Below the pieces are notes generated by a model. The model saw nothing but the letters and a program-made list of their open reading frames with translations. It had not been told where the DNA came from and did not search any database. Below, piece after piece: positions 32,650 to 60,844 of a DNA stretch of 64,000 bases (its first letter is position 1; each line of letters begins with the position of its first letter). The translations under genes were made by a program, and so were the position numbers. This DNA comes from Chitinophagaceae bacterium (GTDB taxonomy: Bacteria > Bacteroidota > Bacteroidia > Chitinophagales > Chitinophagaceae). Location of the stretch: the NCBI GenBank assembly GCA_003168265.1, contig PMSV01000024.1, positions 310,001 through 374,000 on the forward strand. The letters are read 5' to 3'.

Positions 32650-33681
32650 TTAAAAAGGCAAATGATGGTTGATCAGATGAAAGATCAGGTAATATATCGC
32701 TGCCAAAATCGCGCTCACTGGAATGGTAAGTATCCATGCCCAGAGCAGATTGATGGTCACTCCCCAGCGTACGGCAGACAAACGTCTAGTAGCTCCGACT
32801 CCTATGATGGAACCTGTGATCGTATGGGTGGTGCTCACTGGAACGCCGAGTTTCTCGGTCAGAAAAAGGGTCAGGGCACCTGCTGTTTCGGCGCTCACTC
32901 CTTCCAGCGGAGTCACTTTGGTAATGCGGGTTCCCATGGTCTTGACAATTTTCCAGCCACCGCTCATGGTCCCAAGGCCGATGGCAGTGAAACAGGCGAA
33001 TGGCACCCAGTTGGGTACATCCTGAAGGCTTTTGAGATCGCCATGGGCAACCATGGCTGCTGCAATAATTCCCAATACCTTTTGAGCATCATTTCCCCCA
33101 TGGCCAAGGCTGAATAGCGCGGATGAAACCAATTGCAACCGCCTGAACCAATTATCTGCCTTATAGGGATTGGCCCTTCGGCAAATATTGATAATGATGA
33201 CAGAAATCACATAGCCAAAGATCATCCCGATAATCGGAGCCAGAAAGATGAACAGGAAGGTTGGGATCACTTTGGAATAATTGATTACTTCCTGGCCATT
33301 TTTTGCCCATTGGCCGGCATGGGTAAGGGCCGCACCCATAAAGCCGCCCAGCAAAGTATGGGAGGAGCTCGAAGGAATCCCGAACCACCAGGTGAGCAAA
33401 TTCCAGGAAATGGCAGCCATCAGGCCAGAGAAGATCACGGAAAGGGTGATAAATTGCTCGTTGACGGATTTGGCGATCGTATTGCCGATCTTGAATTCTC
33501 CAAAATAATATTTGGCAATGAAAAATGCCGCAAAATTAAAAAGTGCTGCCCATAATACCGCTTGAAACGGAGTCAGAACCTTGGTAGAAACGATGGTGGC
33601 GATGGAATTGGCCGCATCATGGAAACCGTTGATATAGTCGAAAACCAAAGCAAGGGCTATGATGACAACCAAAAAACTCAT
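32650..33681 (-). CDS. pitA: Inorganic phosphate transporter, PiT family
   Basis: A low-affinity, ion-coupled phosphate permease of 343 residues from the ATG at 33681, with about ten membrane helices. The two inverted PiT signatures are visible: YINGFHDAANSIAT near the N-terminus and LGHGGNDAQKVLGI in the second half. It lies 68 bp downstream of the DUF47 gene on the same strand, the usual PiT partner. No Pho-box-like array precedes this pair, so it may be constitutive while pst answers starvation. Confidence 0.93.
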   Translation of the reverse strand: MSFLVVIIALALVFDYINGFHDAANSIATIVSTKVLTPFQAVLWAALFNFAAFFIAKYYFGEFKIGNTIAKSVNEQFITLSVIFSGLMAAISWNLLTWWFGIPSSSSHTLLGGFMGAALTHAGQWAKNGQEVINYSKVIPTFLFIFLAPIIGMIFGYVISVIIINICRRANPYKADNWFRRLQLVSSALFSLGHGGNDAQKVLGIIAAAMVAHGDLKSLQDVPNWVPFACFTAIGLGTMSGGWKIVKTMGTRITKVTPLEGVSAETAGALTLFLTEKLGVPVSTTHTITGSIIGVGATRRLSAVRWGVTINLLWAWILTIPVSAILAAIYYLIFHLINHHLPF

Positions 33682-45799: not shown

Positions 45800-46033
45800 T
45801 TATCCGACGGAGAGCCAGATTTCCATCCTTGACTTTTCCAAATGATCCTTTGCTTTGTTTGCTTCTGGTGTCCCCCTTTCAAAATCCCAGTATCTGGCCT
45901 GTAAAGATGAACAATGATAAGTAAACTAATGGTTATCATGATCAGTGGCATAGAGCCGGGCACCACAGATTATACAGGAAAAAGTTGGATGAAATTCCAT
46001 TTCCTGGCCGTTCGTTGTTTGTTCTTTTTGCAT
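45800..46033 (-). pseudogene. Small zinc-ribbon protein gene interrupted by an amber stop
   Basis: On the minus strand an ATG at 46033 opens a frame with FSCIICGARLYATDHDNH, then an in-frame TAG (45928-45926), then continues FTYHCSSLQARYWDFERGTP and EANKAKDHLEKSRMEIWLSV to a TAA at 45800. The whole is 78 codons. Together the halves look like one small Bacteroidota zinc-ribbon protein with CxxC, a later Cys and the ARYWDFERGT segment; the stop breaks it after residue 35. The family resemblance is from memory. A sequencing error or an active short form from a downstream start cannot be excluded. Confidence 0.5.
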
Positions 46034-46046
46034 ATGATCAACATTT

Positions 46047-46394
46047 ATGAGCTGGTTGCCCGGCTGGCACTCCGATGAAAAACCTTGGGATAATCAGCAA
46101 AAAGAACGTGGATTTTTAATAACCTATACAAAATACAAGGCCAGCGGTTGCCACATCTGTCCTTTGTGTGAAGCTTGCTATAAGCAAAAAGGCAACCGAA
46201 TAGCGACTATGGCTGTTATACCTGCAATGGATTCCCATTTGGACATTTTCAAGGATGGGAGTCCCTGCTGGAGAACCAGAGTTCCTTCTTTAACATCTGC
46301 ATTAACACTAAATTCTTCCAAAACACCGTTTAAGGAAACGGTAAGTGGCGGGAAAGATTCGGCAGGATATCAAGTATCGGCGTTAGACATTTGA
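46047..46394 (+). mobile_element. Transposase fragment, IS1182-like
   Basis: The frame from 46047 contains QQKERGFLITYTKYKASGCH then ICPLCEACYKQKGNR (to about 46198). This resembles the Cys-rich segment of IS1182-family DDE transposases (YxAKNCxGCPLRxxCxKAKGNR). Neither the upstream catalytic part nor the downstream end is present, and the sequence after KGNRI no longer looks like the family. It is a remnant, too short to define ends or inverted repeats. Confidence 0.45.
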
Positions 46395-46425
46395 CCATGA
46401 TACGGTAGCGATTTATACCGAATAT

Positions 46426-46481
46426 ATAACGCTAAGATAACTATTCAATAAGCTTAAAGATACATTGCCGGATTACCTTTG
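46426..46481 (+). promoter_or_regulatory. Pho-box-like array and promoter of the alkaline-phosphatase-like gene
   Basis: Three direct repeats with an 11-bp period start at 46426, 46437 and 46448 (ATAACGCTAAG, ATAACTATTCA, ATAAGCTTAAA). A perfect -7 element TACCTTTG follows at 46474-46481, 26 bp after the start of the last repeat, and the gene starts 14 nt further. There is no TTTG at -33, as expected if an activator replaces it. The same layout occurs at 47696, 55793 and, on the minus strand, 55729. Confidence 0.55.
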
Positions 46482-46495
46482 TAAAACCACTTAAA

Positions 46496-47611
46496 ATGAA
46501 ATCTGCTTTCATCCTTTTCCTTTTCCTTTCCCTGTTTATTTCGGCTAAAGCCCAAAACCCCGCCCAGGCAGAGAACATTTTCATAATCACTACAGACGGA
46601 TTCCGGTGGCAGGAACTTTTTTCCGGTGCGGATTCCCTCCTGATCAGTAATTCTCAATACGTAGAAGACATTTCCATAGCCAGGCAGCTTTTTTGGGATC
46701 AGGACCCGATGGAAAGAAGACGCCTGCTCATGCCCTTTTTCTGGAATGTAATTTCAAAGAGCGGTCAGATTTACGGAAACAGGGCTCTTGGAAATAAATC
46801 CAATGCAGCCAATCCCTACAAGATATCTTACCCAGGTTACAACGAGATCTTAACCGGTTATATAGATCCTTTTATCATCATCAATTATCCCAAGCTCAAT
46901 CCCAATACTAATATATTGGAATACCTGAACAACGAAGGAGAATATCATGGTAAGGTCGTAGCTTTCAGTTCCTGGTCTGTATTCCCCTCTATTTTAAACA
47001 ACCACCGAAATAATCTCCCGGTGAATAGCGGATGGCAGAACATGGAGGAAGAAAACAATGACAGCGTTTATGACCTGATCAATAAGGTTCAGGATGGAGT
47101 ACCTATAAAAAATAATACCCGATATGACTGGCTCACCTACCTGAATGCAAAAGAGTATATAACACAACACCATCCCCGCATCGTTTTCATCGGCCTGGGA
47201 GAAACAGATGAATTCGCTCACGAAGGCCATTATGACAAATACCTTCAGCATGCCAATGCTGTGGACAAAATGATCGGGGATTTATGGTATTTTGTTCAAA
47301 CCCAGCCCTGCTACAGGAACAAGACCACTTTCATCATCACCACGGATCACGGCAGGGGAAAAAAGGTTTATAACTGGAGCAATCACAGCCTGTTTACAGA
47401 CGGCTCGGCCCAAACCTGGCTGGCCATGATCGGGCCCGGCATCGAACCGCTTGGCGAGATGAAGGGGAAACAGCAGATCTACCAAAAGCAAATTGCAGCT
47501 ACTATTGCTAATTTATTGGGTCAGCCCTTCAAATCCGAGCACAGGATCGGGCAAGCAATCAATCTTCCCCCCGTTCAACAGATGGCTGATGCCACTGTTG
47601 GAAGCAAATAA
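46496..47611 (+). CDS. Alkaline phosphatase superfamily protein (phosphodiesterase/phosphoglyceromutase-like), secreted
   Basis: A 371-residue protein with signal peptide (SAFILFLFLSLFISAKAQ). It belongs to the alkaline phosphatase superfamily: the N-terminal metal site is IFIITTDGFRWQELFSGAD, and the C-terminal sites are GLGETDEFAHEGHYDKYLQ and FIITTDHGRGKKVYNWSNHS with Asp, His and His ligands. It is likely periplasmic and releases phosphate from an organic ester; the exact substrate is unknown. A Pho-box-like array sits directly upstream, and the porin-pst operon follows, so a phosphate-scavenging role is likely. Confidence 0.82.
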   Translation: MKSAFILFLFLSLFISAKAQNPAQAENIFIITTDGFRWQELFSGADSLLISNSQYVEDISIARQLFWDQDPMERRRLLMPFFWNVISKSGQIYGNRALGNKSNAANPYKISYPGYNEILTGYIDPFIIINYPKLNPNTNILEYLNNEGEYHGKVVAFSSWSVFPSILNNHRNNLPVNSGWQNMEEENNDSVYDLINKVQDGVPIKNNTRYDWLTYLNAKEYITQHHPRIVFIGLGETDEFAHEGHYDKYLQHANAVDKMIGDLWYFVQTQPCYRNKTTFIITTDHGRGKKVYNWSNHSLFTDGSAQTWLAMIGPGIEPLGEMKGKQQIYQKQIAATIANLLGQPFKSEHRIGQAINLPPVQQMADATVGSK

Positions 47612-47695
47612 GATGACCATTCTTTCATAAAAATTTGTCCCGGATAACTGGGAACTACTTCGCTTTGGTGATAATCAACTAGATAGAGATATCAG

Positions 47696-47751
47696 TTAAC
47701 ACTAAGGTAATATTGGCTTAACATTCCGATCAATTTGCAGTTCTTCTTTTG
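47696..47751 (+). promoter_or_regulatory. Pho-box-like array and promoter of the porin-pst operon
   Basis: Direct repeats with an 11-bp period start at 47696, 47707 and 47718 (TTAACACTAAG, GTAATATTGGC, TTAACATTCCG). A -7-like TTCTTTTG (one mismatch) is at 47744-47751, again exactly 26 bp after a repeat start. The porin gene starts 26 nt downstream. Confidence 0.6.
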
Positions 47752-47777
47752 CATTCCAAACACACAACTAATAATTT

Positions 47778-49148
47778 ATGAGAAGAATTGGTTCAATCAA
47801 ATTCCTACTTACAACGATTGTTGTTTTATTAATCTCTCTTGGATCAGCGACTGCACAATACGTGTGGAATTCTGATTCTGCTTTCAGGGCGGGAGCTCCC
47901 GGTTCCGGAAGAATCTGGGGATATGTATTCGGCGATTTCTATTATAAGGGACATAGCGATTCCCTGAATCGGGGCGGCAATAACCAGTATACAGGCATCC
48001 CCCAGGGAAGGAACGCATTCCAGTTCCGTCGTCTTTATCTCGGTTATGATTACAACCTGAGTCAAAAATTTTCTGCAGAATTATTACTTGCAGCAGAAGA
48101 CAATTTTCCGGCTTTCAACCCACCTTCTTCAAGTGCAGCAAGCGGTGACCAACTTTTGAACAACAAGGAATCCTTTTTCATCAAATATGCCGATGTGAAG
48201 TGGAAGAATATCTGGAAAGGAACCGACCTCATTGTAGGAGAGCAGCCCACCCCGGCCTTCCCCTTCATCACAGAAAGAATCTGGGCTTATCGCTCGAGTG
48301 AAAGAACGATTTCCGATATCAGGCGTACACCTTCTTACGATATGGGCGCAGGTCTGCGCGGCACATTCGATCCTTCAACAAAGAATTTCGGATACGATCT
48401 GCTGGTAGGCAATGGAACAAGCGACAAACCGCCCACTAACAGTTTCAAATGGTTTTACGGGGATGTTTATGCCTATCTGTTAAAAAAGCAGTTGGTACTC
48501 GATCTCTATGCCGATTACCAAAGGCTGAACTGGCAACCGGGTTGGCACCATGATCGCCAGATGGTCAAGGGATATATCGCCTATAGCTTTCCGACCACGG
48601 AAAAATATTATCCCGGTCTGACCATCGGCGTGGAAGGATTCGTGAATAATTTGCGGGGTGATACTAAAGGATACATGTATAAATCCTCAGGCTTACCCAA
48701 TGATACCCTGGCAACTGTTGCAGAAGGAATTTCATTCTATATTCACGGAGATATTATCAAAGAAAAACTCCGCTTTTTCGCCCGTATCGACATGTACAAT
48801 CCGAACAAAAACATAGGCAAAAATCTGCAGGATTCTGCATTTGCGGGTCTCTCCTCTCCCAGCGGTTACAATACGCCCGGGTATAAGATGACCTATAGCG
48901 CCAGCACCGGAACACCGACTGCGGCAACCAGCACAGGCGATATCTCCTCCAAAGAAACATTTATGAACATTGGATTGGACTTTACTCCGATAAAAGGCGT
49001 CCATTTTATGCCCAATATCTGGTATAACCATTATAACTCCCAGTTGCCGAATCCTCCAGGAGTGGCTCCTGGAACATCGAATGCCAATTATGACCTGGTA
49101 TACCGTATAACATTTTATTTTGTTTTCGGTAAGAGAGAGCTTCTGTAA
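47778..49148 (+). CDS. Outer-membrane porin (phosphate-selective porin O/P-like)
   Basis: A 456-residue outer-membrane beta-barrel protein with a signal peptide (RIGSIKFLLTTIVVLLISLG). It has alternating beta-strand patterns (FRRLYLGYDYNLSQKFSAEL, YDLVYRITFYFVFGKRELL at the end) with a C-terminal aromatic/Leu strand. It is first in an operon with pstSCAB-phoU, so it most likely carries phosphate or phosphate esters across the outer membrane, as do OprO/OprP-like porins. Selectivity itself is not visible from sequence. Confidence 0.82.
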   Translation: MRRIGSIKFLLTTIVVLLISLGSATAQYVWNSDSAFRAGAPGSGRIWGYVFGDFYYKGHSDSLNRGGNNQYTGIPQGRNAFQFRRLYLGYDYNLSQKFSAELLLAAEDNFPAFNPPSSSAASGDQLLNNKESFFIKYADVKWKNIWKGTDLIVGEQPTPAFPFITERIWAYRSSERTISDIRRTPSYDMGAGLRGTFDPSTKNFGYDLLVGNGTSDKPPTNSFKWFYGDVYAYLLKKQLVLDLYADYQRLNWQPGWHHDRQMVKGYIAYSFPTTEKYYPGLTIGVEGFVNNLRGDTKGYMYKSSGLPNDTLATVAEGISFYIHGDIIKEKLRFFARIDMYNPNKNIGKNLQDSAFAGLSSPSGYNTPGYKMTYSASTGTPTAATSTGDISSKETFMNIGLDFTPIKGVHFMPNIWYNHYNSQLPNPPGVAPGTSNANYDLVYRITFYFVFGKRELL

Positions 49149-49196
49149 AGAGCAGGGTTCTTAAAGTGAATTTCAACACTCCTACAATCAATAAAG

Positions 49197-50288
49197 ATGA
49201 AAATCAGATTTCACAATTTGAAAAGCACCCTGACCCTGGGTGTTTTTTTTGCTATTCTGACAATAAGCGCATGCGGAGATGGAGGCAATGGGACAACAGG
49301 GAGTTCGGGAGATGACAATACCCTGATTGGTGCGGGCAGTTCGTTTGACAATCCGCTTTTCTCAAAAATGTTTTCTGAATACAACAAGGCGAATGGATTA
49401 AGAGTCAATTATCAATCCATTGGTTCAGGAGCGGGTATTTCCCAACTTACGAATAAGACCGTGGATTTCGGAGCCTCGGACGCACCAATGAACTCCAAAC
49501 AGGATTCTGCAGCATCCGCTGCCATTCTACATATTCCGGTGACAGCCGGTGCAGTTGCTTTAAGTTACAACCTGCCGGAAGTAAAGGATACCCTGCGCTT
49601 GACTCCTACGGTTTTGGCTGGTATCTTCCTCGGAAAGATCAGCAGATGGGATGATCCCCAGATCGCATCTATAAATAAGGGAATTAAGCTGCCTTCAACG
49701 GGGATCGTGGTTGCCCATCGTTCGGATGGCAGTGGTACTACAAATATTTTCTCAACCTATCTTTCCAAGGTGAGCGAGGATTGGAATGCAAAAGTGGGTA
49801 AGGGTTCTTCTGTGAATTGGCCCGTCGGCCTCGGCGGTAAAGGAACAGAAGGGGTAGCCGGTTTGGTCAAACAAACCCCTGGCGCCATCGGGTATATTGA
49901 GCTGGCCTATGCCATTCAAAATAATATGGCCTATGCAAAAATCCAGAACAAATCGGGCAGTTTCATTGCGCCCAGCATTGCCAGTGTAACTGCTGCCGCA
50001 AACGTCAACATTCCTCAGGATTCGAAGATCTCCCTGACCAATACCGATGCATCTGACGGTTACCCGATTTCTGGTTTTTCCTGGGTTTTGATCTATAAGG
50101 AACAGAAATACAATAATCGTAGGTCGGACAGGGCAGCAAAACTTCTGAAACTTATATCCTGGATGATACATGACGGTCAGCAATTCAGCGGCCCTCTGAC
50201 TTATGCTCCTTTATCAACGGCAGCCGCCACTGTAGGCGATGCGATTTTAAAAACCGCAACCTACGATGGCAAACCAATCCTCCCTTAA
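49197..50288 (+). CDS. pstS: Phosphate ABC transporter substrate-binding lipoprotein PstS
   Basis: The periplasmic phosphate-binding protein. The signal peptide ends in a lipobox (TISACGDGG), so it is a lipoprotein. LIGAGSSFDNPLFSKMFSEY, YQSIGSGAGISQLTNKTVDF and GASDAP are the typical N-terminal ligand loops, followed by VVAHRSDGSGTTNIFSTYLS (SGT phosphate loop) and GAIGYIELAYA. The 363-residue length fits PstS. It is the second gene of the pst operon, 48 bp after the porin. Confidence 0.97.
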   Translation: MKIRFHNLKSTLTLGVFFAILTISACGDGGNGTTGSSGDDNTLIGAGSSFDNPLFSKMFSEYNKANGLRVNYQSIGSGAGISQLTNKTVDFGASDAPMNSKQDSAASAAILHIPVTAGAVALSYNLPEVKDTLRLTPTVLAGIFLGKISRWDDPQIASINKGIKLPSTGIVVAHRSDGSGTTNIFSTYLSKVSEDWNAKVGKGSSVNWPVGLGGKGTEGVAGLVKQTPGAIGYIELAYAIQNNMAYAKIQNKSGSFIAPSIASVTAAANVNIPQDSKISLTNTDASDGYPISGFSWVLIYKEQKYNNRRSDRAAKLLKLISWMIHDGQQFSGPLTYAPLSTAAATVGDAILKTATYDGKPILP

Positions 50289-50333
50289 TAAACTGAAAAG
50301 CAAATGGGAACCAGGTGAGTAAAGAATATTTTT

Positions 50334-51320
50334 ATGAGTGAAGCGACCATAGAAAATAAAGGAATTGCCCTCAGTGACTCGAAGCTGGGGGTAATTAATT
50401 CTGATCTGGCGCTAATTCAGTCAAAAAAAGGGGTCAGACGACTCAACAGACAGATCCGAACGGAAAATACTTTCAGGAAAATGTTATTGTTGATGGGTCT
50501 GATAATGATCCTGCTTGTGATCGGAATCTTATTCACCTTGCTGCTTGAATCCATTCCCTCTTTGAAAGCCCTGGGGCTTAAATATCTTTGGGGTAAGACT
50601 TGGGATCCGGTTCAGGATATCTATGGAGCCTATCCATTTCTTCTGGGAACACTGCTCACTTCATTTCTTGCCCTCATCATATCCATTCCCTTTTCAATTG
50701 CCATTGCAGTTTTTCTGGGAGAATATTATCCCAAGGGCTGGATTCCGGATTTTCTAAAAAACACTGTGGAGTTGATCGCTGCTGTGCCTTCAGTAATCTA
50801 CGGGTTCTGGGGCTTAGCTGTATTGGTTCCAATGGTCAGGAGTCTGGAAACAACGCTGCATGTGGATCCTTACGGGGTTGGGATCTTTACAAGTTCCCTT
50901 ATTCTGGCGGTCATGATCATTCCTTATGCGGCCTCCCTGGGTCGATCCGTCATTCAAATGGTCCCTTCCTCCCTTAAAGAAGGGGCCTATGCGCTTGGGG
51001 CTACCCGATGGGAAGTCATCCGTTCCGTGATCATTCCCTATACCAAGTCCGGTTTGTTTGCCGGCATCCTGCTTTCACTAGGCAGGGCCCTGGGCGAGAC
51101 CATGGCCGTTACGATGGTGATCGGTAATACAAGCATTATTCCGAAAAGCATTTTTGCTCCTGGCAATACGATGGCCAGCGTCATTGCAAATGAATTCACA
51201 GAGGCCGATAAGCCGGTTTATTTGTCCGCCCTGATAGAACTGGGATTGGTGCTTTTTCTTGTTACTGTGGTTATAAACATGATTGGTAAAAGGGTGATCC
51301 GCCGGTTTACAAATGAATAA
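50334..51320 (+). CDS. pstC: Phosphate ABC transporter permease PstC
   Basis: An inner-membrane permease of 328 residues with a polar N-terminal extension of about 45 residues and six membrane helices. IAVFLGEYYPKGWIPDFLKN and VELIAAVPSVIYGFWGLAVL are PstC motifs, and EGAYALGATRWEVIRSVIIP is the cytoplasmic coupling loop (EAA) that contacts PstB. It lies 45 bp after pstS and 3 bp before pstA. Confidence 0.96.
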   Translation: MSEATIENKGIALSDSKLGVINSDLALIQSKKGVRRLNRQIRTENTFRKMLLLMGLIMILLVIGILFTLLLESIPSLKALGLKYLWGKTWDPVQDIYGAYPFLLGTLLTSFLALIISIPFSIAIAVFLGEYYPKGWIPDFLKNTVELIAAVPSVIYGFWGLAVLVPMVRSLETTLHVDPYGVGIFTSSLILAVMIIPYAASLGRSVIQMVPSSLKEGAYALGATRWEVIRSVIIPYTKSGLFAGILLSLGRALGETMAVTMVIGNTSIIPKSIFAPGNTMASVIANEFTEADKPVYLSALIELGLVLFLVTVVINMIGKRVIRRFTNE

Positions 51321-51323
51321 AAT

Positions 51324-52169
51324 ATGAGCCAGAGCGTTCAATACAGAATTGGAATAAGCCGGATCGTCCGAGTTATTACTATAGTGTTGGCTTTTGCTTG
51401 CATTCTCCCCTTATTTGCCATCCTTTTCTACATTATCAAGGCAGGTATAACCAGAGTGAATTGGAGTTTTTTGGTCAATGTCCCCAAGCCGGTTGGTGAA
51501 AAAGGGGGAGGCATTGCCAATGCATTACTGGGAACTTTTCTGATCATCATTGTGGCGTCCTTGATTGCAATACCAGTCGGAATAATGTGCGGTGTGTTCT
51601 TAAGCGAAAACAGGAAGAGCAGACTGGCTTATTGGAGCAGGCTCTGTGTGGACATCCTCCAGGGGGTTCCTTCGATCGTTATAGGTATCATCGCCTATTT
51701 CTGGCTGGTCAAACCATTAGGTGGTTTTTCCGCATTATCTGGCAGTGTGGCACTGGCTATCATGATGCTTCCGATAGTGATCCGGTCAACGGAAGAAACC
51801 TTAAAGCTGCTCCCTGACTCACTGAAGGAAGCGGCGTTTGCACTAGGCATGCCCTTTCACAGGGTTATTCTGAAGGTGATCGTTCCTTGCGGGATCAGCG
51901 GGATCCTCTCCGGAGTGATGCTTTCGATAGCAAGGGTAGCGGGGGAAACCGCTCCTCTTTTGTTCACTGCCTTCGGGAACCCTTATTTGTCAGCCAATAT
52001 AACCAAACCCATGCAAAGCCTCCCTTTGCTGATTTTCAATTATGCTACGAGTCCTTATAACGACTGGCATGACCTTGCCTGGGGAGCATCCGTGATATTG
52101 CTCGTCTTCGTACTCCTTTTAAATATTTCTACTAAGCTGATTACCAAAAGATGGAAAGTACAATTGTAA
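51324..52169 (+). CDS. pstA: Phosphate ABC transporter permease PstA
   Basis: The second permease of the high-affinity phosphate importer, 281 residues with six helices. [58 protein letters not shown] and the coupling loop [20 protein letters not shown] are typical of PstA. Its 3' end overlaps pstB by 19 bp in another frame, so the two are tightly coupled. Confidence 0.96.
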
Positions 52170-52909
52170 AATCGGTCGATTATAATGCCTATTTCGGAGA
52201 TAATCACGTTGTGAAAAACGTGAACATTTCAATACCCAGAAATCATGTTATTGCCGTCATGGGGCCATCCGGTTGTGGGAAAACGACTTTTTTGAGAGGG
52301 ATCAACCGCATGCATGAATTGATACCGAATGCCACGGCGAACGGACAGATTCTGCTTAACAATGAGGATGTGATGCAAATGCATCCCATTTTTGTCCGCC
52401 TGAAGATCGGAATGGTCTTTCAGCGTCCCAATCCCTTCCCCAATCTCAGTATTTACGATAATGTCATCGCGGGATACAAACTGAATGGCATTAGTTTAGC
52501 CAGGATGGACAGGGACCGGATCGTGGAGGAATCGCTCAGCAAAGTGGCTTTATGGAAGGAGGTTAAGGATTCCCTCACAAAAAAGGGCACTTTTCTTTCA
52601 GGCGGCCAGCAACAAAAGCTTTGCATAGCCCGGGCAGTGGCAATGCAACCCGAGGTCCTGCTCTTCGACGAACCGACCAGCGCTCTGGATCCGATTTCCA
52701 CTTCCTCAGTAGAAGAGCTTTTCCATGACTTGAAAAAAAATTATACCTTAATCATTGTCACGCACAATATGCAGCAGGCAGCAAGGGTTAGTGACCAGAC
52801 TGCCTTCTTCTATCTGGGCGAACTGGTGGAATTCGACGACACAAAAAAAATGTTTACCAATCCAAAGGACAAAAGGACCCAAAATTATATAACGGGCCGA
52901 TTCAGCTAA
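52151..52909 (+). CDS. pstB: Phosphate ABC transporter ATPase PstB
   Basis: The ATPase that drives phosphate import, 252 residues. Walker A is [11 protein letters not shown], the Q loop [18 protein letters not shown] (the RPNPFP segment is diagnostic for PstB), the signature [15 protein letters not shown], Walker [15 protein letters not shown], and the H loop [16 protein letters not shown]. It starts inside the end of pstA. Confidence 0.97.
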
Positions 52910-52939
52910 TCCCATACAGAATCTTAAATATCAAGGATC

Positions 52940-53602
52940 ATGACACAGCTAGAAACAGAATTGCATTTACTTAAAAAAGAAGTCATCAATATGTGGGACC
53001 TCGTGCGGTCGCAGTTGGTCAAAGCAAGGAGCGCCATGCTGAATTTCGATAAGGATCTGGCAAGGGAAGTGATACTGAAAGAACGAAGGGTGAATGGCTC
53101 TGAATTGAAAATCGACCGGGACTGCGAGAATATTTTTGCCCTGCTCACCCCAGTGGCAGTGGACCTGCGCTTCGTACTTGCAGTATTGAAGATCAATTCA
53201 AACCTGGAGCGGATCGGCGATATTGCCGAAGGCATTGCAAAATATGTACTGAGCATTGAGATTCCCTTTCACAGGCCCCTGCTGGAAGAAACCTTAGTGA
53301 TAAGAATGTATGATGAATCCGTCAATATTTTCGAGGATGCCCTGACTGCTTTTGAAAATGAAGACACCCTTCTGGCCCGGAGCATTTTTAAGAAAGATGA
53401 ATATCTCGACGATATCAATCTGAGGGCCAATGATCTGATAGAAAAATACCTTAACTCCCATCCCCAGGACCTGAATCAGGCACTTTATATTCTCTCCGTG
53501 ATCCGGAAATTGGAGCGCGTGGGAGATCAATCAAAGAATATCTCCGAGGAGATCATCTTCTACTTGGAAGCCAAAGTGCTCAAGCACAGGCATACTCATT
53601 AG
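52940..53602 (+). CDS. phoU: Phosphate signalling complex protein PhoU
   Basis: Two three-helix bundles (about 220 residues) with the metal-binding motifs of PhoU: INSNLERIGDIAEGIAKYVL in the first half and ILSVIRKLERVGDQSKNISE in the second (E-x-x-x-D type). It links the transport state of PstSCAB to the phosphate two-component system and represses the regulon when phosphate is plentiful. It is the last gene of the operon and is followed by a clear terminator. Confidence 0.95.
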   Translation: MTQLETELHLLKKEVINMWDLVRSQLVKARSAMLNFDKDLAREVILKERRVNGSELKIDRDCENIFALLTPVAVDLRFVLAVLKINSNLERIGDIAEGIAKYVLSIEIPFHRPLLEETLVIRMYDESVNIFEDALTAFENEDTLLARSIFKKDEYLDDINLRANDLIEKYLNSHPQDLNQALYILSVIRKLERVGDQSKNISEEIIFYLEAKVLKHRHTH

Positions 53603-53722
53603 TAACAAAGCGATAATGTAAGGATAAGAGGGGGTTAATAGAGCGAAATTATCTTGCAGCAAATTTGCAGTTGTTAACAGTGGTCTTATAAGCAACGCAA
53701 GAATTTCTCATGCAGCAAAATC

Positions 53723-53755
53723 AGCCACCTCATTTCCATGCGGTGGCTTTTTATT
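53723..53755 (+). terminator. Intrinsic terminator of the porin-pst-phoU operon
   Basis: AGCCACC (53723-53729) and GGTGGCT (53742-53748) form a 7-bp stem followed by TTTTTATT. It lies about 120 nt after phoU and just beyond the convergent glycosyltransferase gene, which ends at 53785. Confidence 0.8.
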
Positions 53756-53784
53756 GATTCCTAACGATTAAATGATTGTAATAA

Positions 53785-54822
53785 TTAATTAATGGTAAGC
53801 TCAGGATAGAGCAGATCCAGCTTTTTGTTCCTGCCATGAGCACAATGCATCATCAAAAAACTGATGGCAGCTTCAGTAGAAAAATCAATGGTATAATGAA
53901 TCCTCTTTATATCACTGATCCAATCTTTGAACTGGCTCCCAAAATGGTTATCGACCGCTTTAAGGCATTTTACGCCCATTTGCTGCAAAGCCGCAGCATT
54001 GCAATGTTGTTCATATTGCCCCCTGATGGGTATTGCCATGAGTTTTTTGCCCAGGTAAAGGGCTTCGGCCGGTGTTTCGAAGCCTGCATTACTGATCAGG
54101 GCCTTGCAATTGATCAGGCTTTTATTGAATCTTTCCTTGCAAACTGGTATCAGGGTCACATTTTGGAGGATTGTGGGTTGGTTAACTTCCTTGGAAAAGA
54201 CCTCAAAGCGAAAATCCTTTAAGAGGAAAAACTGTTTGCAGATGATCTCGTCACAATAGGAGGGTAGATATACCGTAATATGCCCCTTATCGGTAGGTTC
54301 CGCCAGCAGGATATCCCGTTTGATGATCGGAGGCAGAATAAATTCATCGTAGCTTTTAAAATGGAGCCCGATATATTGAGAAGCCCTTGCATAGTTATGC
54401 AGGACCCATTCGCCGAAGAAATCCTTTCTTCCTGGCCGGGGTACCCGCTCAGACTGGAAACTGGCCTGGTGTCCGAAATTGACAGAAGGGACTTTTTTGA
54501 TAGCACAGGCCAGGGAGGTGATGCTCTCAAAATCATTGATCACGAGGTCGTATTTTTCAACAGGCAGTTCGCGGGCCTCGCGCAGTGCCCTGAGAGGAGA
54601 GAATTCCTTTACCGTGTCGACATAATTCAGTCCGCCGGTACTCGTATAAAAAAAGCAGAGGCCTTTGCTTCGGTATTTGACCGGCGCATTAAGGGGCAAT
54701 GTGCTATTCGAACCGCTCAGGAAGATATCTACTGTTCCATATCGTGATAAAAATGGGAGGATTTCCATGGCCCTGCTGATATGTCCGTTTCCGGTGGCCT
54801 GTACTGCGTAGAAGATTTTCAT
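53785..54822 (-). CDS. Glycosyltransferase (GT-B, MurG/UGT-like), possible glycolipid synthase
   Basis: A 345-residue GT-B glycosyltransferase of the family that opens YAVQATGNGHISRAMEILPF (GxGH loop). The C-terminal donor-binding part reads NCKALISNAGFETPAEALYL followed by GKKLMAIPIRGQYEQHCNAA, as in MurG and UDP-glycosyltransferases. No signal peptide, so it is cytoplasmic or membrane-associated. It lies 12 bp after a metallophosphoesterase gene resembling the phospholipase PlcP, next to pst-phoU, so it may glycosylate the diacylglycerol released by that enzyme (an Agt-like role). This role is inferred from context, not from sequence. Confidence 0.72.
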   Translation of the reverse strand: MKIFYAVQATGNGHISRAMEILPFLSRYGTVDIFLSGSNSTLPLNAPVKYRSKGLCFFYTSTGGLNYVDTVKEFSPLRALREARELPVEKYDLVINDFESITSLACAIKKVPSVNFGHQASFQSERVPRPGRKDFFGEWVLHNYARASQYIGLHFKSYDEFILPPIIKRDILLAEPTDKGHITVYLPSYCDEIICKQFFLLKDFRFEVFSKEVNQPTILQNVTLIPVCKERFNKSLINCKALISNAGFETPAEALYLGKKLMAIPIRGQYEQHCNAAALQQMGVKCLKAVDNHFGSQFKDWISDIKRIHYTIDFSTEAAISFLMMHCAHGRNKKLDLLYPELTIN

Positions 54823-54834
54823 ATATTGTTTAAT

Positions 54835-55671
54835 TCAGATTGCCAGTGAACTGATATAAAAACTGATTTCGTCGGTGACCACATTTACTTCGGGCTGTAC
54901 CTCCGCTTTGTGAAGCAGGGGGAATTCCTTTTCGTCAAATTCATAAATGCTCCATTCATTCTGCTTGTATTCCAATGCCGTGCAATGCTCGACCCAATCC
55001 CCTGAGTTCAGATAGGTCACCTTACCTTTCTCGTTTTCCACTACTCTTTTCTGCGGTTTATGAATATGGCCGCAAATGACAAAATCGTATTTTTTTTCAA
55101 TCGCCAGCTCAGCGGCGATGGTTTCGAAATCATTGATCTTGCTGACCGCTTTATTCACTCCCGCCATCACCATCTTGGATATGGAAACCCTCTCCTGGCC
55201 AACTAGTTTTAGGAGGAAATTGATCAGGCGGTTAAACCTGATCAAAAGGTTATAGCCCTTGCTTCCCAGTTTCGCCAGAAATTTCGCACTGTTCCTGGTG
55301 GTATTGTCGAATACATCTCCATGGAAGACCCAGGTCATTTTGTTATCGATCTCAAGAACCAGCTTGTCGGTCAGCGTAAAGTTCCCAATCTGGGTATCGC
55401 TGTATTTGCGCATCATCTCATCATGGTTGCCAGTTATATAGAATACGCGGGTCCCCCGGGTGATCATTTGCATGACCTCTTTTATGACCTGCATATGGGT
55501 GGGAGGGAAGAAATGCTTGCTGAATTGCCAACAGTCGATAATATCGCCGTTGAGGATGAGAATATTCGGGGCAATGCTCTTGAGATAACTGACCAGTTCC
55601 TTTGCGCGGCATCCGTATGAACCCAGGTGCAAATCGGAGATCACCACTACATCCAGAGAACGTTTTTCCAT
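54835..55671 (-). CDS. Metallophosphoesterase, PlcP/LpxH-like (phospholipase C of phosphate-stress type)
   Basis: A 278-residue calcineurin-like phosphoesterase. The metal ligands are intact: Asp13 and His15 in ISDLHLG, Asp in LNGDIID (42-46), Asn82-His83-Asp84 in GNHDEM, His117 in FHGDVFD, and His202/His204 in CGHIHKP. The segments ISDLHLGSYGCRAKELVSYL and YLNSGDWVEHCTALEYKQ resemble PlcP (phosphate-starvation phospholipase C of rhizobia and marine bacteria) as closely as they do LpxH. Automated tools usually name this family UDP-2,3-diacylglucosamine diphosphatase. Location near pst-phoU and the upstream Pho-box-like array favour PlcP. Confidence 0.75.
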   Translation of the reverse strand: MEKRSLDVVVISDLHLGSYGCRAKELVSYLKSIAPNILILNGDIIDCWQFSKHFFPPTHMQVIKEVMQMITRGTRVFYITGNHDEMMRKYSDTQIGNFTLTDKLVLEIDNKMTWVFHGDVFDNTTRNSAKFLAKLGSKGYNLLIRFNRLINFLLKLVGQERVSISKMVMAGVNKAVSKINDFETIAAELAIEKKYDFVICGHIHKPQKRVVENEKGKVTYLNSGDWVEHCTALEYKQNEWSIYEFDEKEFPLLHKAEVQPEVNVVTDEISFYISSLAI

Positions 55672-55684
55672 TACAGAGGTTTTT

Positions 55685-55729
55685 CAAAGGTCCGAATTGA
55701 ATATTAACCATGGTTTACCCCGGTATTAA
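55685..55729 (-). promoter_or_regulatory. Pho-box-like array and promoter of the metallophosphoesterase-glycosyltransferase pair
   Basis: On the minus strand, repeats with an 11-bp period start at 55729, 55718 and 55707 (TTAATACCGGG, GTAAACCATGG, TTAATATTCAA). A -7-like GACCTTTG (one mismatch) starts at 55692, exactly 26 bp after the middle repeat. The gene starts 13 nt further. The same bases can also be read as a plus-strand array (TTAACCATGGT at 55704, TTACCCCGGTA, TTAACAAATTG). Confidence 0.5.
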
Positions 55730-55792
55730 CAAATTGTGAGCTTACTGTGAAGGGATTATTATGCGATTAAGAGACACAGTTAAAATATACTG

Positions 55793-55859
55793 TTAAAGGT
55801 TTCCTAACAATTCGATCATTAGCCGTTAATATTCCCTTAATAAGGCTACTCTATTTTCG
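55793..55859 (+). promoter_or_regulatory. Pho-box-like array and promoter of susCD
   Basis: An uninterrupted 11-bp register runs from 55793: TTAAAGGTTTC, CTAACAATTCG, ATCATTAGCCG (degenerate), TTAATATTCCC and TTAATAAGGCT. A -7-like TATTTTCG (one mismatch) starts at 55852, 26 bp after the fourth repeat. The SusC start codon lies 43 nt downstream. Confidence 0.5.
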
Positions 55860-55902
55860 CCAGACTCTTAGGCATCGAATCAAAAATTAAAACCTACTGT
55901 TT

Positions 55903-58900
55903 ATGTCAAAAAAGACTGCACTGCCCTATTGGGCGGTATTGCTGATACTTATTCTTTCTCCTTTATTCGGCTTGGCCCAAAAACTAATCTCAGGGCAGGT
56001 GCTTTCCAAGACAGACCAATCTCCGGTAGCCGGAGCCACCATCATTGTGAAAAGCTCCCGAGTTGGCGCATCTACGAATGAAGATGGTAAATTCATCATC
56101 CGTGCAAAACAAGGAGATATCCTGCAGATCTCAGGGATAGGGATTGTCAAAGAAGAATATACGGTTACAGATGGAACGGCGATCGTGATCAGGGTTTCTA
56201 CGGATGCCAAAAGCCTCAATGAGGTTGTCGTAACCGCAACTGGGATAAAGAAAGAGGCAAAACGTTTGGCCTATGCCATACAGACGGTGGATGCCAGCCT
56301 CTTTACGCAAGCGAGGGAAGCCAACCCGGTCAATGTGCTCAAAGGGAATGCTGCCGGTTTAGAAATTAACGTCAACTCCGAAATAGGACATGCTCCAGAC
56401 GTTATCATGCGTGGAGAAGGTCAGCCAGTATTTGTTATCGATGGAGTGCCGGTCAATTATGATACTTATAATGTAAACCCGGATGACATAGAAACATTTA
56501 CAATCTTAAAAGGCCCGAACGCAGCTGCGCTTTATGGTTCACAGGGTCAGGATGGGGCCATCATTATCACTACAAAGAAAGGAACAAAGAATAAAAGAGG
56601 GATTGCAATCGATTTGAATTCAAGCACCCAGTTCAATAAGGGTTTTATTGCACTTCCTAAATGGCAGGACCAATATGGTCCTGGGGATAACGGTAAATAT
56701 GCATTCGGTGGGGGAGGTTCAAGTGCTGCTTCCTATTTTGGCAGTGGGGCCGTTGGTGTTGGAATTAACGATTATGACTATGATATCTGGGGCCCTCAGT
56801 TCCGCGGCCAATTGCTTCCTCAATATGACGGAGCATATAATCCAAATCAAAATTATACAACCACTTTTGCAGATGGAAGCACTTATAGCGGACATGTTCA
56901 ACCTACACCTTGGGTGGCCCGTGGTGCAAATAATCTTAAGCGATATCTGCAATCTGGTCTGCTTTCAGTTAACGGCATAGCGGTTAGTTCTTCTACGGAT
57001 AAGACCGATTTCAGGCTTTCTGTAAGTAATTCCTACCAGCGTGGGATCGTTCCGAACACTGAAATGAACAATGGCAGTTTTACTACCAGTTTAGTTCACC
57101 GTTTTGACAACCATTTCAGCCTGACTGCTTATTTCAACTATGCGCGTCAGTCTACACCAAATGTACCGGATGTTCAATATGGCCCAAACAGCATGATCTA
57201 CAATATCATTATCTGGGGGGGTGCGGACTGGAACATTCAGGACCCAGCCATTAAATCTTACTGGCAACCGGGTAAAGTGGGTATTCAGCAGCTTTATGAG
57301 GAATACTACCGGTACAACAATCCATGGTTCATGTCCTATCAGTGGTTGAGATCCCACTATCAGAACAATGAATACGGTTATATATCATTAAACTATAAAT
57401 TGAATTCCGCGTTAGATTTCCAATTCAGACCTGCTCTTTCCACTTATGACATGTTTAATTCCGAAAAGATGCCTTATTCCGCAGGAGTATACGGCCGACC
57501 TTTGAGGCAGGGCGATTACAGGGAAGACAAGAGATCCCTTTTTGAATCCAATGAGGACCTGCAAGTACGTTTTCATCCCGGTCAGCTTTTTGGATTCCTG
57601 AATCTGCAAGCATTAGGCGGAGCTACGGCTAGAAATTTTTCCTTTAACTCAAGCTATACTTCCACCAACTACCTAAATGTACCCGGGATCTATGCATTCA
57701 CTAACTCTCTGAACCCCGTTCAGGCTACGGGATATACATCCAACATGATTGTTTTAAGTGCCTATTATTCAGTTGACCTGGGTTATAAATTTTTTGTCAC
57801 GGCAAATATTACGGGCCGAGAGGACAAATCCTCAGCTCTTCCAGTGAATTCTGATAGCTATTTTTACCCTTCCTTCAACCTTGCTTCGGTGGTTTCAGAC
57901 TATTTGAATATTCCACGACCCATCTCTTTTCTTAAAATAAAAGCGTCCTATTCTGAAAGCAAGAACGGAGGTACAACACCCCTTTTTACAGCAAACCTGG
58001 CGAATGTTCCAGCAGCTAATAACTACGGCTATTCCTGGACCTCTCCTTATAATGGCCCTACTTATCAATTCTCTCCAACCTATACCCTTGCCCCTACCTA
58101 TAGTAGTCAGTCAAGTGCTCAATACTCGGATCAGACCATCAGCCCCAAGATCTATACCGCAGACAGAAAAGCTGATGAATTCGGGCTCGATATTAGGTTC
58201 CTGGAAAACAAACTTGGATTGGATTTGACCCGATATCACTACCGCAATACGGGCATAGTTGCCCAGGGGATTTCTCCGGCTTCCGGCTATTCTTCCTATC
58301 TGACCAACGGAAATATTTATACCAACGATGGATGGGAGGCCGTGCTTACGGGAAAAGCGATCTCCAATCCTAACGGGTTTAGCTGGATTGTCACTGCGAA
58401 TTTCTTCACCTTTATCAGGAAATGGGTAAGCGATGCTAATCCGGACAACTGGCAACACAATGGTACCCGGATCGATCTCGTTTATGGGGACGCCTTCGAA
58501 AGGACCCCTGATGGAAAATTCGTCATTGATCCAAGCTCCGGCCTTTATAACCGCATCCAGGAAGAGGGAGGGACAAGCGCCAATAAGATTTTTGGGCATT
58601 CTGATCCCGATTGGCAATGGGGAGTAACCAACACGATCAGTTATAAGAACCTGAGCCTTCGTTTCCAGTTTGACGGAATAGTAGGTGGCGTAATACAGGA
58701 TTATGTAAGAAAGAAAACATTACAGGGAGGACGCCATGCTGAAACCGCTGAAGGAGCATATGGTGCAGCAAGGCCCAGCGATGAAGCCAATATACCCGCC
58801 TATACCGGCGTAGGGGTGAATCTCACAGGTGCTCCTATTCAACTCGATCCGGTATCTGGTGTGATCACCAACTACAAATCCTTGACTGAAACGGTGAATA

Positions 58901-59205
58901 CCACCAAGAGCTTGGTTCAGCCCTTTGTATATAATCTTTCCTCGGTACCCGATTTGGATATGATAAAGAAAACCTATGTCAAGCTCAGGGAATTGGTCCT
59001 GACCTATAATTTTTCTCCCAAGATTTTTGGTCCGAAGGCCTTTGTGCAGAAAGCCAGTTTTTCTTTCGTAGGTCGGAACCTGCTCTATTTTTTCCCGCAA
59101 CGATATAAAGATATCGATGTAGATCAATATACACAGGACAACGAATCCGGTCTTCAGACACCGACCACCCGCAACTTCGGATTCAACCTGAATTTTACTT
59201 TCTAA
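55903..59205 (+). CDS. SusC/RagA-family TonB-linked outer membrane receptor
   Basis: An 1100-residue TonB-dependent importer. A signal peptide ends near LFGLAQ, followed by a carboxypeptidase-like domain (KLISGQVLSKTDQSPVAGAT, TNEDGKFII) and the SusC-type TonB region LNEVVVTATGIKKEAKRLAY. The plug follows (NVLKGNAAGLEINVNSEIG, VIMRGEGQPVFVIDGVPVNY, ILKGPNAAALYGSQGQDGAI), then a 22-strand barrel ending FGFNLNFTF. It pairs with the SusD gene 19 bp downstream. A Pho-box-like array directly upstream suggests it serves phosphate-linked nutrient uptake rather than simple glycans. Substrate unknown. Confidence 0.95.
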   Translation: MSKKTALPYWAVLLILILSPLFGLAQKLISGQVLSKTDQSPVAGATIIVKSSRVGASTNEDGKFIIRAKQGDILQISGIGIVKEEYTVTDGTAIVIRVSTDAKSLNEVVVTATGIKKEAKRLAYAIQTVDASLFTQAREANPVNVLKGNAAGLEINVNSEIGHAPDVIMRGEGQPVFVIDGVPVNYDTYNVNPDDIETFTILKGPNAAALYGSQGQDGAIIITTKKGTKNKRGIAIDLNSSTQFNKGFIALPKWQDQYGPGDNGKYAFGGGGSSAASYFGSGAVGVGINDYDYDIWGPQFRGQLLPQYDGAYNPNQNYTTTFADGSTYSGHVQPTPWVARGANNLKRYLQSGLLSVNGIAVSSSTDKTDFRLSVSNSYQRGIVPNTEMNNGSFTTSLVHRFDNHFSLTAYFNYARQSTPNVPDVQYGPNSMIYNIIIWGGADWNIQDPAIKSYWQPGKVGIQQLYEEYYRYNNPWFMSYQWLRSHYQNNEYGYISLNYKLNSALDFQFRPALSTYDMFNSEKMPYSAGVYGRPLRQGDYREDKRSLFESNEDLQVRFHPGQLFGFLNLQALGGATARNFSFNSSYTSTNYLNVPGIYAFTNSLNPVQATGYTSNMIVLSAYYSVDLGYKFFVTANITGREDKSSALPVNSDSYFYPSFNLASVVSDYLNIPRPISFLKIKASYSESKNGGTTPLFTANLANVPAANNYGYSWTSPYNGPTYQFSPTYTLAPTYSSQSSAQYSDQTISPKIYTADRKADEFGLDIRFLENKLGLDLTRYHYRNTGIVAQGISPASGYSSYLTNGNIYTNDGWEAVLTGKAISNPNGFSWIVTANFFTFIRKWVSDANPDNWQHNGTRIDLVYGDAFERTPDGKFVIDPSSGLYNRIQEEGGTSANKIFGHSDPDWQWGVTNTISYKNLSLRFQFDGIVGGVIQDYVRKKTLQGGRHAETAEGAYGAARPSDEANIPAYTGVGVNLTGAPIQLDPVSGVITNYKSLTETVNTTKSLVQPFVYNLSSVPDLDMIKKTYVKLRELVLTYNFSPKIFGPKAFVQKASFSFVGRNLLYFFPQRYKDIDVDQYTQDNESGLQTPTTRNFGFNLNFTF

Positions 59206-59224
59206 AAACTTAAATTCAGAAAAA

Positions 59225-60844
59225 ATGAAATCATATAGATATATCTCAATTATCGCCTTAGTGGCTTTAATAGCATCTGCATGCAATAAAAAAATAGAAA
59301 GCCTGCAATCAAATCCCAATGCGCCGACCTCAGTACCGCCGGCCCTGATCTTGGGGACAGTGCTAACTGATATGTCAGGAACAGGGGACCAGGGATCCCT
59401 GGGTGGTATCAATTCCTGGGGCAATGTTGGTGACTGGAATCAATACCACTGTCAGAATTATAATTATTACGGAAACAACATTTATTCCTGGTCCAATGGC
59501 TCATATGACCCCTACCTTGTATTGAAGAACGTGATTCAAATGGAAAAAGAAGCGACTTCAAGAGGAGCGGCTGCAGTGAATCCTTATGAAGCTGTCGGAA
59601 GGTTTGTCCAGGCTTATTATTATTACAACATGACGATGCTTTTCGGTGATGTGCCTCAAGCGCAGGCGCTGAATACGAGCAATACAACACCTTCCTATAC
59701 CCCGCAGGAGCAGGTATTTGAATACGTGTTGAATCAATTGGACTCGGCCAATTCGGATTTTGCCACCCTGATCAGCAACAATGACAATTCTCTCTCATCA
59801 GGCCAGGACATCTATTACGGCGGGAATTTGACCAATTGGCAGAAACTGGTGAATTCATTCAAGTTGAGAGTGCTTATTGAACTGAGCAATAAGGCTTCAG
59901 ATGCTACTTTGAACGTGCCGGCCCAGTTTGCCAGTATATTCAATAATCCGACACAATATCCGATTTTCCAAAGCCAGTCGGATGATTTTGAAATGATCTA
60001 CAATCCGGGCGGATCGGACACCTATACCACCTATCCTTTCAATCCGAGTAATTTCGGTTCGATTGCTGCCCGATTCAATATGTCCTACACCTATGTCAAT
60101 GCATTGACAGCGATCAATGATCCCAGGGTCTTTATCACCTGTGAACCAGCCTGGGCCATTGTAGGAAGTGACACCGCCCACCCGGCGCAGTTTCAGTATT
60201 TTGTCGGAGCCAGCACAGGCCTTGACCTGGGTACCATGTATGCCAATGCCAGCGCCGGCGACTATTCCTTTATCAACCGCTATCGCTACTATTCCAATTT
60301 TACCGGCGAGCCGGATGTATTGGTGGGTTATAAGGAATTGCTTTTTAATATCGCTGAAGCGATCGAACTCGGATGGATCAGTGGAAATGCGGAAACCTAT
60401 TATAAGACTGGCATTAACGAGTCCATGAAATTCTATGGAATCGACACTACACAAAATAGTTTTACGGCCTATTTCCTGCCTCCTTCCGCCAATGCTGTGA
60501 CACAGGTTGCTCCCTATCCCTACAGCTTCACTTTTTCAAACTATTATGTGCAACTTTCTGTAAAACTTTCTTCCATTGAGGACTCTGCCATCCACCAGAT
60601 TGTATTGCAGAAATACATTGCCTGTTTTGAGAATTCAGGTTATGAAGGCTATTTCAATTACAGAAGGACAGGTGTTCCGGTATTCCAGGACGGTGTTGGG
60701 GTAGGAAACGATGGGATCATACCCCTACGCTGGAGCTATCCTTTGACCGAACAACAACAGAATTCAAAAAATTGGCAGGCCGCCTTAACCAACCAGGGGT
60801 TTTCCACTGACGATCTCAACCAGGTTATGTGGTTGTTGAAATGA
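59225..60844 (+). CDS. SusD/RagB-family nutrient-binding outer membrane lipoprotein
   Basis: A 539-residue surface lipoprotein with lipobox IASAC (Cys20) and the SusD-like helical fold. It opens NKKIESLQSNPNAPTSVPPA then LILGTVLTDMSG, which fits the SusD-like_2 subgroup (PF12771 type), and has NPYEAVGRFVQAYYYYNMTM in a TPR-like helix and GYEGYFNYRRTGVPVF near the C-terminus. It forms the lid of the SusC channel and binds the nutrient. No other genes of a glycan locus (glycoside hydrolases, SusR/HTCS) are nearby, which is unusual for a polysaccharide system. Confidence 0.92.
   Translation: MKSYRYISIIALVALIASACNKKIESLQSNPNAPTSVPPALILGTVLTDMSGTGDQGSLGGINSWGNVGDWNQYHCQNYNYYGNNIYSWSNGSYDPYLVLKNVIQMEKEATSRGAAAVNPYEAVGRFVQAYYYYNMTMLFGDVPQAQALNTSNTTPSYTPQEQVFEYVLNQLDSANSDFATLISNNDNSLSSGQDIYYGGNLTNWQKLVNSFKLRVLIELSNKASDATLNVPAQFASIFNNPTQYPIFQSQSDDFEMIYNPGGSDTYTTYPFNPSNFGSIAARFNMSYTYVNALTAINDPRVFITCEPAWAIVGSDTAHPAQFQYFVGASTGLDLGTMYANASAGDYSFINRYRYYSNFTGEPDVLVGYKELLFNIAEAIELGWISGNAETYYKTGINESMKFYGIDTTQNSFTAYFLPPSANAVTQVAPYPYSFTFSNYYVQLSVKLSSIEDSAIHQIVLQKYIACFENSGYEGYFNYRRTGVPVFQDGVGVGNDGIIPLRWSYPLTEQQQNSKNWQAALTNQGFSTDDLNQVMWLLK

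Follow-up and report, generated by a model that had tools for sequence, protein, structure and literature searches.

Four promoters in a phosphate gene cluster of a Chitinophagaceae bacterium (GenBank assembly GCA_003168265.1) carry TTAACA-like repeats that are phased at 11 bp and stand in register with the −7 element. These arrays are very probably the boxes to which PhoB binds (Pho boxes) in this lineage. All four lie in the window, the 64,000-nucleotide stretch analyzed here (contig PMSV01000024.1, positions 310,001 to 374,000, forward strand; coordinates count from its first letter), and precede an alkaline phosphatase (AP)-like gene, a porin-pst operon, plcP, and susC. Here, we report the arrays, their conservation in the family, and a small RNA family that probably belongs to the same regulon.

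Phased arrays and their register

The four arrays were found at the positions given in a preliminary description of the window. They are as follows (scores from the 44-promoter profile described below):

46426..46464, + strand: putative Pho box array of the AP-like gene; half-sites at 46426, 46437, 46448, and 46459; score, 17.1
46474..46481, + strand: −7 element TACCTTTG of the AP-like gene
47696..47734, + strand: putative Pho box array of the porin-pst operon; half-sites at 47696, 47707, 47718, and 47729; score, 39.5
47744..47751, + strand: −7 element TTCTTTTG of the porin-pst operon
55702..55762, − strand: putative Pho box array of plcP; half-sites at 55762, 55751, 55740, 55729, 55718, and 55707; score, 39.9
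55685..55692, − strand: −7 element GACCTTTG of plcP
55793..55842, + strand: putative Pho box array of susC; half-sites at 55793, 55804, 55815, 55826, and 55837; score, 25.4
55852..55859, + strand: −7 element TATTTTCG of susC

In all four promoters, half-sites start 48, 37, 26, and 15 bp before the −7 octamer, all in phase: ATAACG/ATAACT/ATAAGC/GATACA (AP), TTAACA/GTAATA/TTAACA/ATCAAT (pst), CTAACA/ATCATT/TTAATA/TTAATA (susC), and CTCACA/TTAATA/GTAAAC/TTAATA (plcP). The repeats listed earlier are present, but their number was underestimated, with six in phase at plcP and five at susC. One repeat starts 26 bp before each octamer, as had been proposed (46448/46474, 47718/47744, and 55826/55852 on the + strand; 55718/55692 on the − strand), and this spacing is the best for plcP, pst, and AP, which lose 12 to 21 bits of the 44-promoter profile when the gap is altered by 1 bp; the strict register gives way at susC, where the optimum is 25 bp (28.5 versus 25.4 at 26 bp). 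The −7 element had been written as TAnnTTTG, which the AP octamer matches perfectly and from which the other three deviate. No TTG occurs 16 to 27 bp before any of the four octamers, and therefore an ordinary −33 box is lacking, as previously noted.

Specificity and conservation

Relatives of plcP were sought in the family, in which 147 of 147 genomes match at an E value of 0.001, ranging from clear orthologues to weak phosphoesterases. Thirty loci were taken and four dropped (the window’s own, two of the same genus, and one truncated), leaving 26 training promoters of other genera. The best motif of a de novo search (one site per promoter, 30 random starts), reached from 2 of the 30 starts, was ungapped and 60 bp long and had three TTAAC-type half-sites, with TAA at columns 10 to 12, 21 to 23, and 32 to 34 and TTTG at columns 50 to 53. 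As no window sequence entered this motif, the 11-bp period and the 26-bp register were recovered independently. The resulting plcP-trained profile ranked the plcP, susC, AP, and pst promoters first to fourth of 127,882 window positions on both strands (49.2, 20.7, 17.4, and 11.5), the plcP promoter being orthologous to the training promoters and the other three nonorthologous; its maximum over 60 simulated windows was 9.7.

A second profile (54 columns) combined these 26 promoters with 18 porin promoters, again with none from the window’s genus. At a score of at least 12, leave-one-out scoring recovered 26/26 plcP and 17/18 porin training promoters, and cross-gene training (plcP versus porin) recovered 23/26 and 17/18, all of these promoters having been picked for showing an array. 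Equal frequency of the pattern before unrelated genes, which the preliminary description had named as contrary to its reading, was not observed: among 51 window genes (ATG open reading frames of at least 150 amino acids, 300 bp upstream of each), the 47 others score at most −4.1. The window PiT gene (32650-33681), before which an array had been called absent, indeed scores −14.5. The best score in a same-genome background of 20 stretches of 20 kb (400 kb) was 11.8, and just 1 of 200 column-permuted profiles yielded any window match of at least 17.

Conservation upstream of pst in relatives, whose lack had been named as equally contrary, was found with the plcP-trained profile. The porin-like gene is present in 26 of 147 family genomes. 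Of 30 porin loci (the high-scoring ones include the window’s own locus and two of the same genus), 20 score at least 9.7, 2 score 4.2 to 4.4, and 8 fall below zero; by linkage, 20 of the 21 loci flanked by PstS reach 9.7, against none of the 9 without PstS (best, 4.4).

A search of the window’s own genome, in which 150 of 1,708 candidates were scored, returned nine matches at E values up to 10. These include plcP (2.5e-5), the region upstream of dnaB (0.0015), pst (0.003), susC (0.05), a stretch for which no downstream open reading frame was found (0.17), a TonB receptor-like gene (0.35), and two weaker matches. Another 29 loci came from 20 genomes of the genus: 9 before plcP and one before a plcP fragment, 5 before porin genes, 1 before an AP gene, 4 before outer-membrane receptors (Pfam), and a mixed or unassigned remaining 10, one of them before a DnaB-like gene. 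Two truncated loci comprise a porin locus (L106) and one without a match to the genes compared (L105). Across the window, the 400-kb background, and the pst comparison, arrays stand upstream of phosphate-acquisition genes rather than others, with exceptions such as dnaB.

Some of these loci carry features of their own. A weak array (C8:466021-466054, L077; E value, 0.54) lies 47 bp before the start of another PiT-type (PHO4) phosphate transporter gene of the genome, unlike at the PiT gene of the window. The dnaB array (G000:C14:485044-485088, L072) is 11-bp phased, and in genome G158 (L096) an array precedes a DnaB-like gene that is 83% identical; DnaG is listed as a direct PhoP target in Riemerella (PMC9603813, main-text extract). 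At L087 (G156:C55), the array precedes the plcP fragment (70 residues matched) and then an intact-looking glycosyltransferase match, so plcP looks broken there.

Beyond the family, a blind search of Flavobacterium johnsoniae CI04 (28 matches at an E value of 10) placed a DUF47-PiT pair (0.0012), a TonB receptor (0.015), and a Porin_O_P gene (0.035) as the top three. The latter two flank phoB and phoR. In this cluster, weaker boxes (8.5 and 9.4) also stand before the genes for the glycosyltransferase and for a protein of 405 residues. By gene order and family, this cluster appears to correspond to Fjoh_0541-0546 of strain DSM2064, for which the extract of PMC8115612 gives fold changes (FC) on phosphate depletion of 5.42, −1.3 (not significant), 0.76, 3.06, 8.02, and 9.91, taken here as log2, a unit not stated in that extract. 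The value of 8.02 belongs to receptor Fjoh_0545, the counterpart of the boxed TonB receptor. The same extract reports induction of plcP, glycosyltransferase, PF01676 phosphatase, and SusC/D-like (PusCD) genes; PhoX (PF05787), which has the highest FC in it, had no match in strain CI04. By eye, Flavobacterium plcP promoters show GTAACC and ATAAAA at 37 and 26 bp before the −7 element.

Regulator and alternative explanations

The genome encodes seven OmpR-type regulators. One is PhoB-like (L005, equal to L268:4737-5417), lies 4.7 kb to the right of the window, and shares its start DDEPDILEIV with F. johnsoniae PhoB; of its solved relatives, MtrA and RegX3 score best. A HisKA/HATPase kinase adjoins it, the pair spanning 3.6 to 5.4 kb past the window end. 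The identification as Pho boxes, first put forward in the preliminary description, is supported by the specificity of the arrays, their conservation at pst, a ladder of repeats like that of Escherichia coli (see below), this nearby regulator and kinase, and the F. johnsoniae phoBR cluster.

Several observations weigh against this identification. Of the four arrays, that of the AP-like gene is weakest, and it is missing from the own-genome matches (150 of 1,708 candidates scored). The second-best of those matches precedes dnaB and has, by eye, no −7 element in register. One pst-linked porin locus (L015) has just two half-sites (−1.3), though TTTG is in register, and one locus without pst linkage (L017) has an array-like stretch (13.1) lacking a −7 element. 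No Pho box was found upstream of the PhoB-like gene itself (score, −7.9). Outside the family, the plcP loci fit unevenly: of 13 in Flavobacterium, 3 score at least 17, 1 scores 11.4, and 9 fall below 8, and in other groups 5 of 12 reach 15, though some start codons may be misplaced. In F. johnsoniae, the Porin_O_P gene beside phoR (L266:8724-10103) has a box of 25.9, and its counterpart is uninduced (FC, −1.3; PMC8115612, main-text extract).

Half-sites this short and A/T-rich, in single arrays as degenerate as that of AP, could be a by-product of AT-rich promoter DNA with phasing by chance. The simulated windows, permuted profiles, and 400-kb background, together with conservation of the arrays in nonorthologous promoters across genera, make this explanation extremely improbable. 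Another member of the OmpR/PhoB family might instead bind the arrays and control the phosphate genes; there are seven such regulators in the genome, and members of the superfamily share similar motifs, E. coli ArcA being named as similar in the extract of PMC9603813. Such a substitution is very unlikely, since one of the seven is PhoB-like and lies beside a histidine kinase near this cluster, the F. johnsoniae boxes flank phoBR, and box presence tracks pst linkage.

If the arrays are PhoB sites, the arrayed genes would be activated in low phosphate. As phosphate falls, the histidine kinase beside PhoB would phosphorylate it, and PhoB dimers would occupy the 11-bp half-sites, (T/G)TAA(C/T)A, head to tail. 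The −33 box would be replaced by the two half-sites that start 26 and 15 bp ahead of the −7 octamer, so that PhoB would recruit the housekeeping sigma factor there. The predicted targets are the phosphatase gene, the porin-pst-phoU genes, susCD, plcP with its glycosyltransferase (lipid remodeling), and a small RNA located between the phoU and plcP genes.

Candidate small RNA at phoU

A fifth array, missed in the preliminary description, precedes this RNA:

53602..53657, + strand: putative fifth Pho box array at the phoU end; half-sites at 53602, 53613, 53624, and 53635; −7 element TATCTTGC
53662..53752, + strand: candidate small RNA of about 90 nt, putatively under Pho control, with an assumed 5′ end; core TTTCTCATGCAG, 53704-53715; intrinsic terminator, about 53724-53752

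The fifth array is the next best separate match in the window (53604-53657; 11.2, or 16.6 at 25-bp spacing), and arrays occupy the corresponding position after phoU in the related genomes G122 and G034. Downstream of the array, the window and both relatives share a block, AATTT(T)CTCATGCAG, followed by a terminator. Of 33 genus genomes, 8 contain this pattern, with one copy each, and a reversed control gave none. Seven of the eight loci adjoin both phoU and the plcP-glycosyltransferase genes, and the eighth (G148) has no phoU nearby. An upstream box scoring at least 11.2 is present at all eight; in G409, 75 bp separate its end from the core. Rfam 15 (4,227 models), run on window positions 46000-56000 (E value of ≤1) and on eight related loci (E value of ≤0.5), gave no match on the RNA; a SNORA25 match (E value, 0.52) was rejected as a chance match.

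Two models were built for wider searches, R2 from 8 sequences and R3 from 18. R2 matches 27 of 244 family genomes, and 15 of its 29 matches have the core; a box of at least 5 accompanies 13/15 matches with the core versus 0/14 without it (11/15 versus 0/14 for a box of at least 12). R3 reports 245 of 394 genomes at an E value of 0.01, but because many weak matches resemble plain terminators, the analysis was restricted to the 71 matches listed with E values of ≤9.4e-6. A Pho box of at least 8 lies just upstream of 34 of the 49 R3 matches with a TTTCTCAT/A core versus none of the 22 without the core, in RNA-bearing relatives that are not independent of each other; the core definition was widened after a narrow one missed TTTCTCAT plus other bases (narrow count, 31/42 versus 3/29). 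The core occurs in 18 genera and a boxed member in 10. Neighbors of the core-bearing matches include plcP or its glycosyltransferase (16 matches), phoU (9 matches), and a PhoB-like gene (7 matches; genera g9, g10, and g24).

The register recurs in these promoters, which were outside the training of every array profile. When the array was placed without the −7 element in 36 usable RNA promoters, TTTG stood exactly 13 bp beyond the array end in 19 and at other offsets in 3. Of the 10 pairs of the terminator helix, 7 vary on both sides, and none of 500 shuffles reaches its covariation score, helix and score coming from one alignment. For five members, the folding z-scores lie between −0.9 and −6.1.

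The element after phoU might be a mere terminator of the pst operon, without a promoter of its own. It does end in an intrinsic terminator, mostly sits between convergent operons, and is known here from sequence alone; its own array is weak (11.2), its own RNA folds just moderately better than shuffles (z-score, −2.1), and a second terminator-like hairpin overlaps both the last half-site and the −7 element in G122 and G410. We nonetheless consider this unlikely, as the unit is codirectional with phoU in the window but with the glycosyltransferase in genomes G153 and G148, a PhoB-like gene is found nearby in three genera, and the upstream box follows the core in the R3 matches.

Probably, the Pho regulon of the family includes an undescribed small RNA family of about 75 to 105 nt, with a nearly invariant UUUCUCAUG core, a covarying terminator, and mostly its own in-register Pho box, often beside phoU/plcP or a PhoB-like gene. 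The traits of trans-acting small RNAs (own promoter, conserved core, and intrinsic terminator) are present as sequence features only, and the RNA is predicted to be transcribed and functional. The UUUCUCAUG core is complementary to CAUGAGAAA, and therefore pairing at start codons is possible; the RNA may act in this way. Siblings with the core but without a Pho box suggest a wider RNA family, one branch of which came under phosphate control.

Terminator RNAs of a second class (CTCTCATG lacking a preceding TTT) have a Pho box in 0/20 cases, and 18/20 are near a glycosyltransferase or plcP (genera g3, g66, g69, and g83; L329, L334, L335, L339-L341, L346, L347, L355, L358, L359, L364, and others). 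Genus g83 has RNA pairs 268 to 419 bp apart (L337 in G083, L338 in G519, and L342 in G428), with one member each carrying the TTTCTCAT core and box scores of 13.1, 4.9, and 11.0.

Genes behind the arrays

46496..47611, + strand: AP-superfamily phosphatase-like protein (PF01676; Pfam)
47778..53602, + strand: porin-like gene, pstS, two permease genes, pstB, and phoU (Pfam, except porin-like)
53785..54822, − strand: glycosyltransferase (PF13528; Pfam), downstream of plcP
54835..55671, − strand: PlcP-like metallophosphoesterase (Pfam)
55903..60844, + strand: susC-susD pair downstream of the susC array (Pfam)

Pfam also names a PstS-type binding protein, an ABC ATPase, PhoU, and DUF5690 among the window genes. 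The porin-like first gene of the pst operon has no Pfam match, and its name comes from the preliminary description.

Comparison with known systems

The arrays provide an explicit promoter code (half-site, period, and fixed −7 distance) for predicting phosphate-starvation genes in the family and, less evenly, in other Bacteroidota, and the adjoining candidate RNA points to a directly testable small RNA arm of the phosphate response. Like Pho boxes elsewhere, they consist of tandem 11-bp direct repeats, and they replace the −35/−33 element at a fixed distance from the −10/−7 element, with susC fitting slightly better at 25 bp. At E. coli pstS, such repeats likewise replace the upstream promoter element. 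There, the ladder stands 17, 28, 39, and 50 bp before the hexamer that we take to be the −10 element, against 15, 26, 37, and 48 bp before the −7 element here, a shift of 2 bp. The E. coli half-site CTGTCA differs from the TTAACA-like one found here, and the partner here is the Bacteroidota −7 element. The Bacillus subtilis PhoP box consists of TT(A/C/T)A(C/T)A repeats, with nearly the same half-site and period in another phylum and with another sigma factor. Riemerella anatipestifer belongs to the same phylum as the bacterium studied here.

The absence of the full E. coli half-site, CTGTCAT, marks a difference from the E. coli box and not from the kind, because the Pho box consensus varies between species (PMC4415409, main-text extract). 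In R. anatipestifer, the motif of a PhoP/PhoB-type regulator has TTTAACA as its most conserved bases; its extracted text gives no spacing to the promoter, and “pst” occurs 0 times in the main text (PMC9603813). In the preliminary description, the motif was not known to have been described for Bacteroidota. Because TTTAACA is printed for Riemerella PhoP (extract of PMC9603813), the half-site has a precedent in the phylum, and no description of the array-to-−7 geometry was found among the matches listed in open-licence PMC, subscription papers lying outside that scope. The half-site is foreshadowed by the Riemerella motif, by binding of Bacteroides fragilis PhoB to a 512-bp pstC promoter fragment (PMC3547664, extract), and by putative Pho boxes predicted upstream of marine plcP clusters, as at plcP here (PMC4796936, extract). 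A literature search of the same scope listed no description of a Pho-controlled RNA in Bacteroidota, and the RNA family would be new, if confirmed. In the F. johnsoniae phosphate-depletion study, “promoter” and “motif” occur 0 times in the main text (PMC8115612). Earlier Bacteroidota papers, in the extracts used and among the matches listed, give induced genes or in vitro binding without this geometry, and the arrays show how an activator can work with a Bacteroidota −7 promoter.

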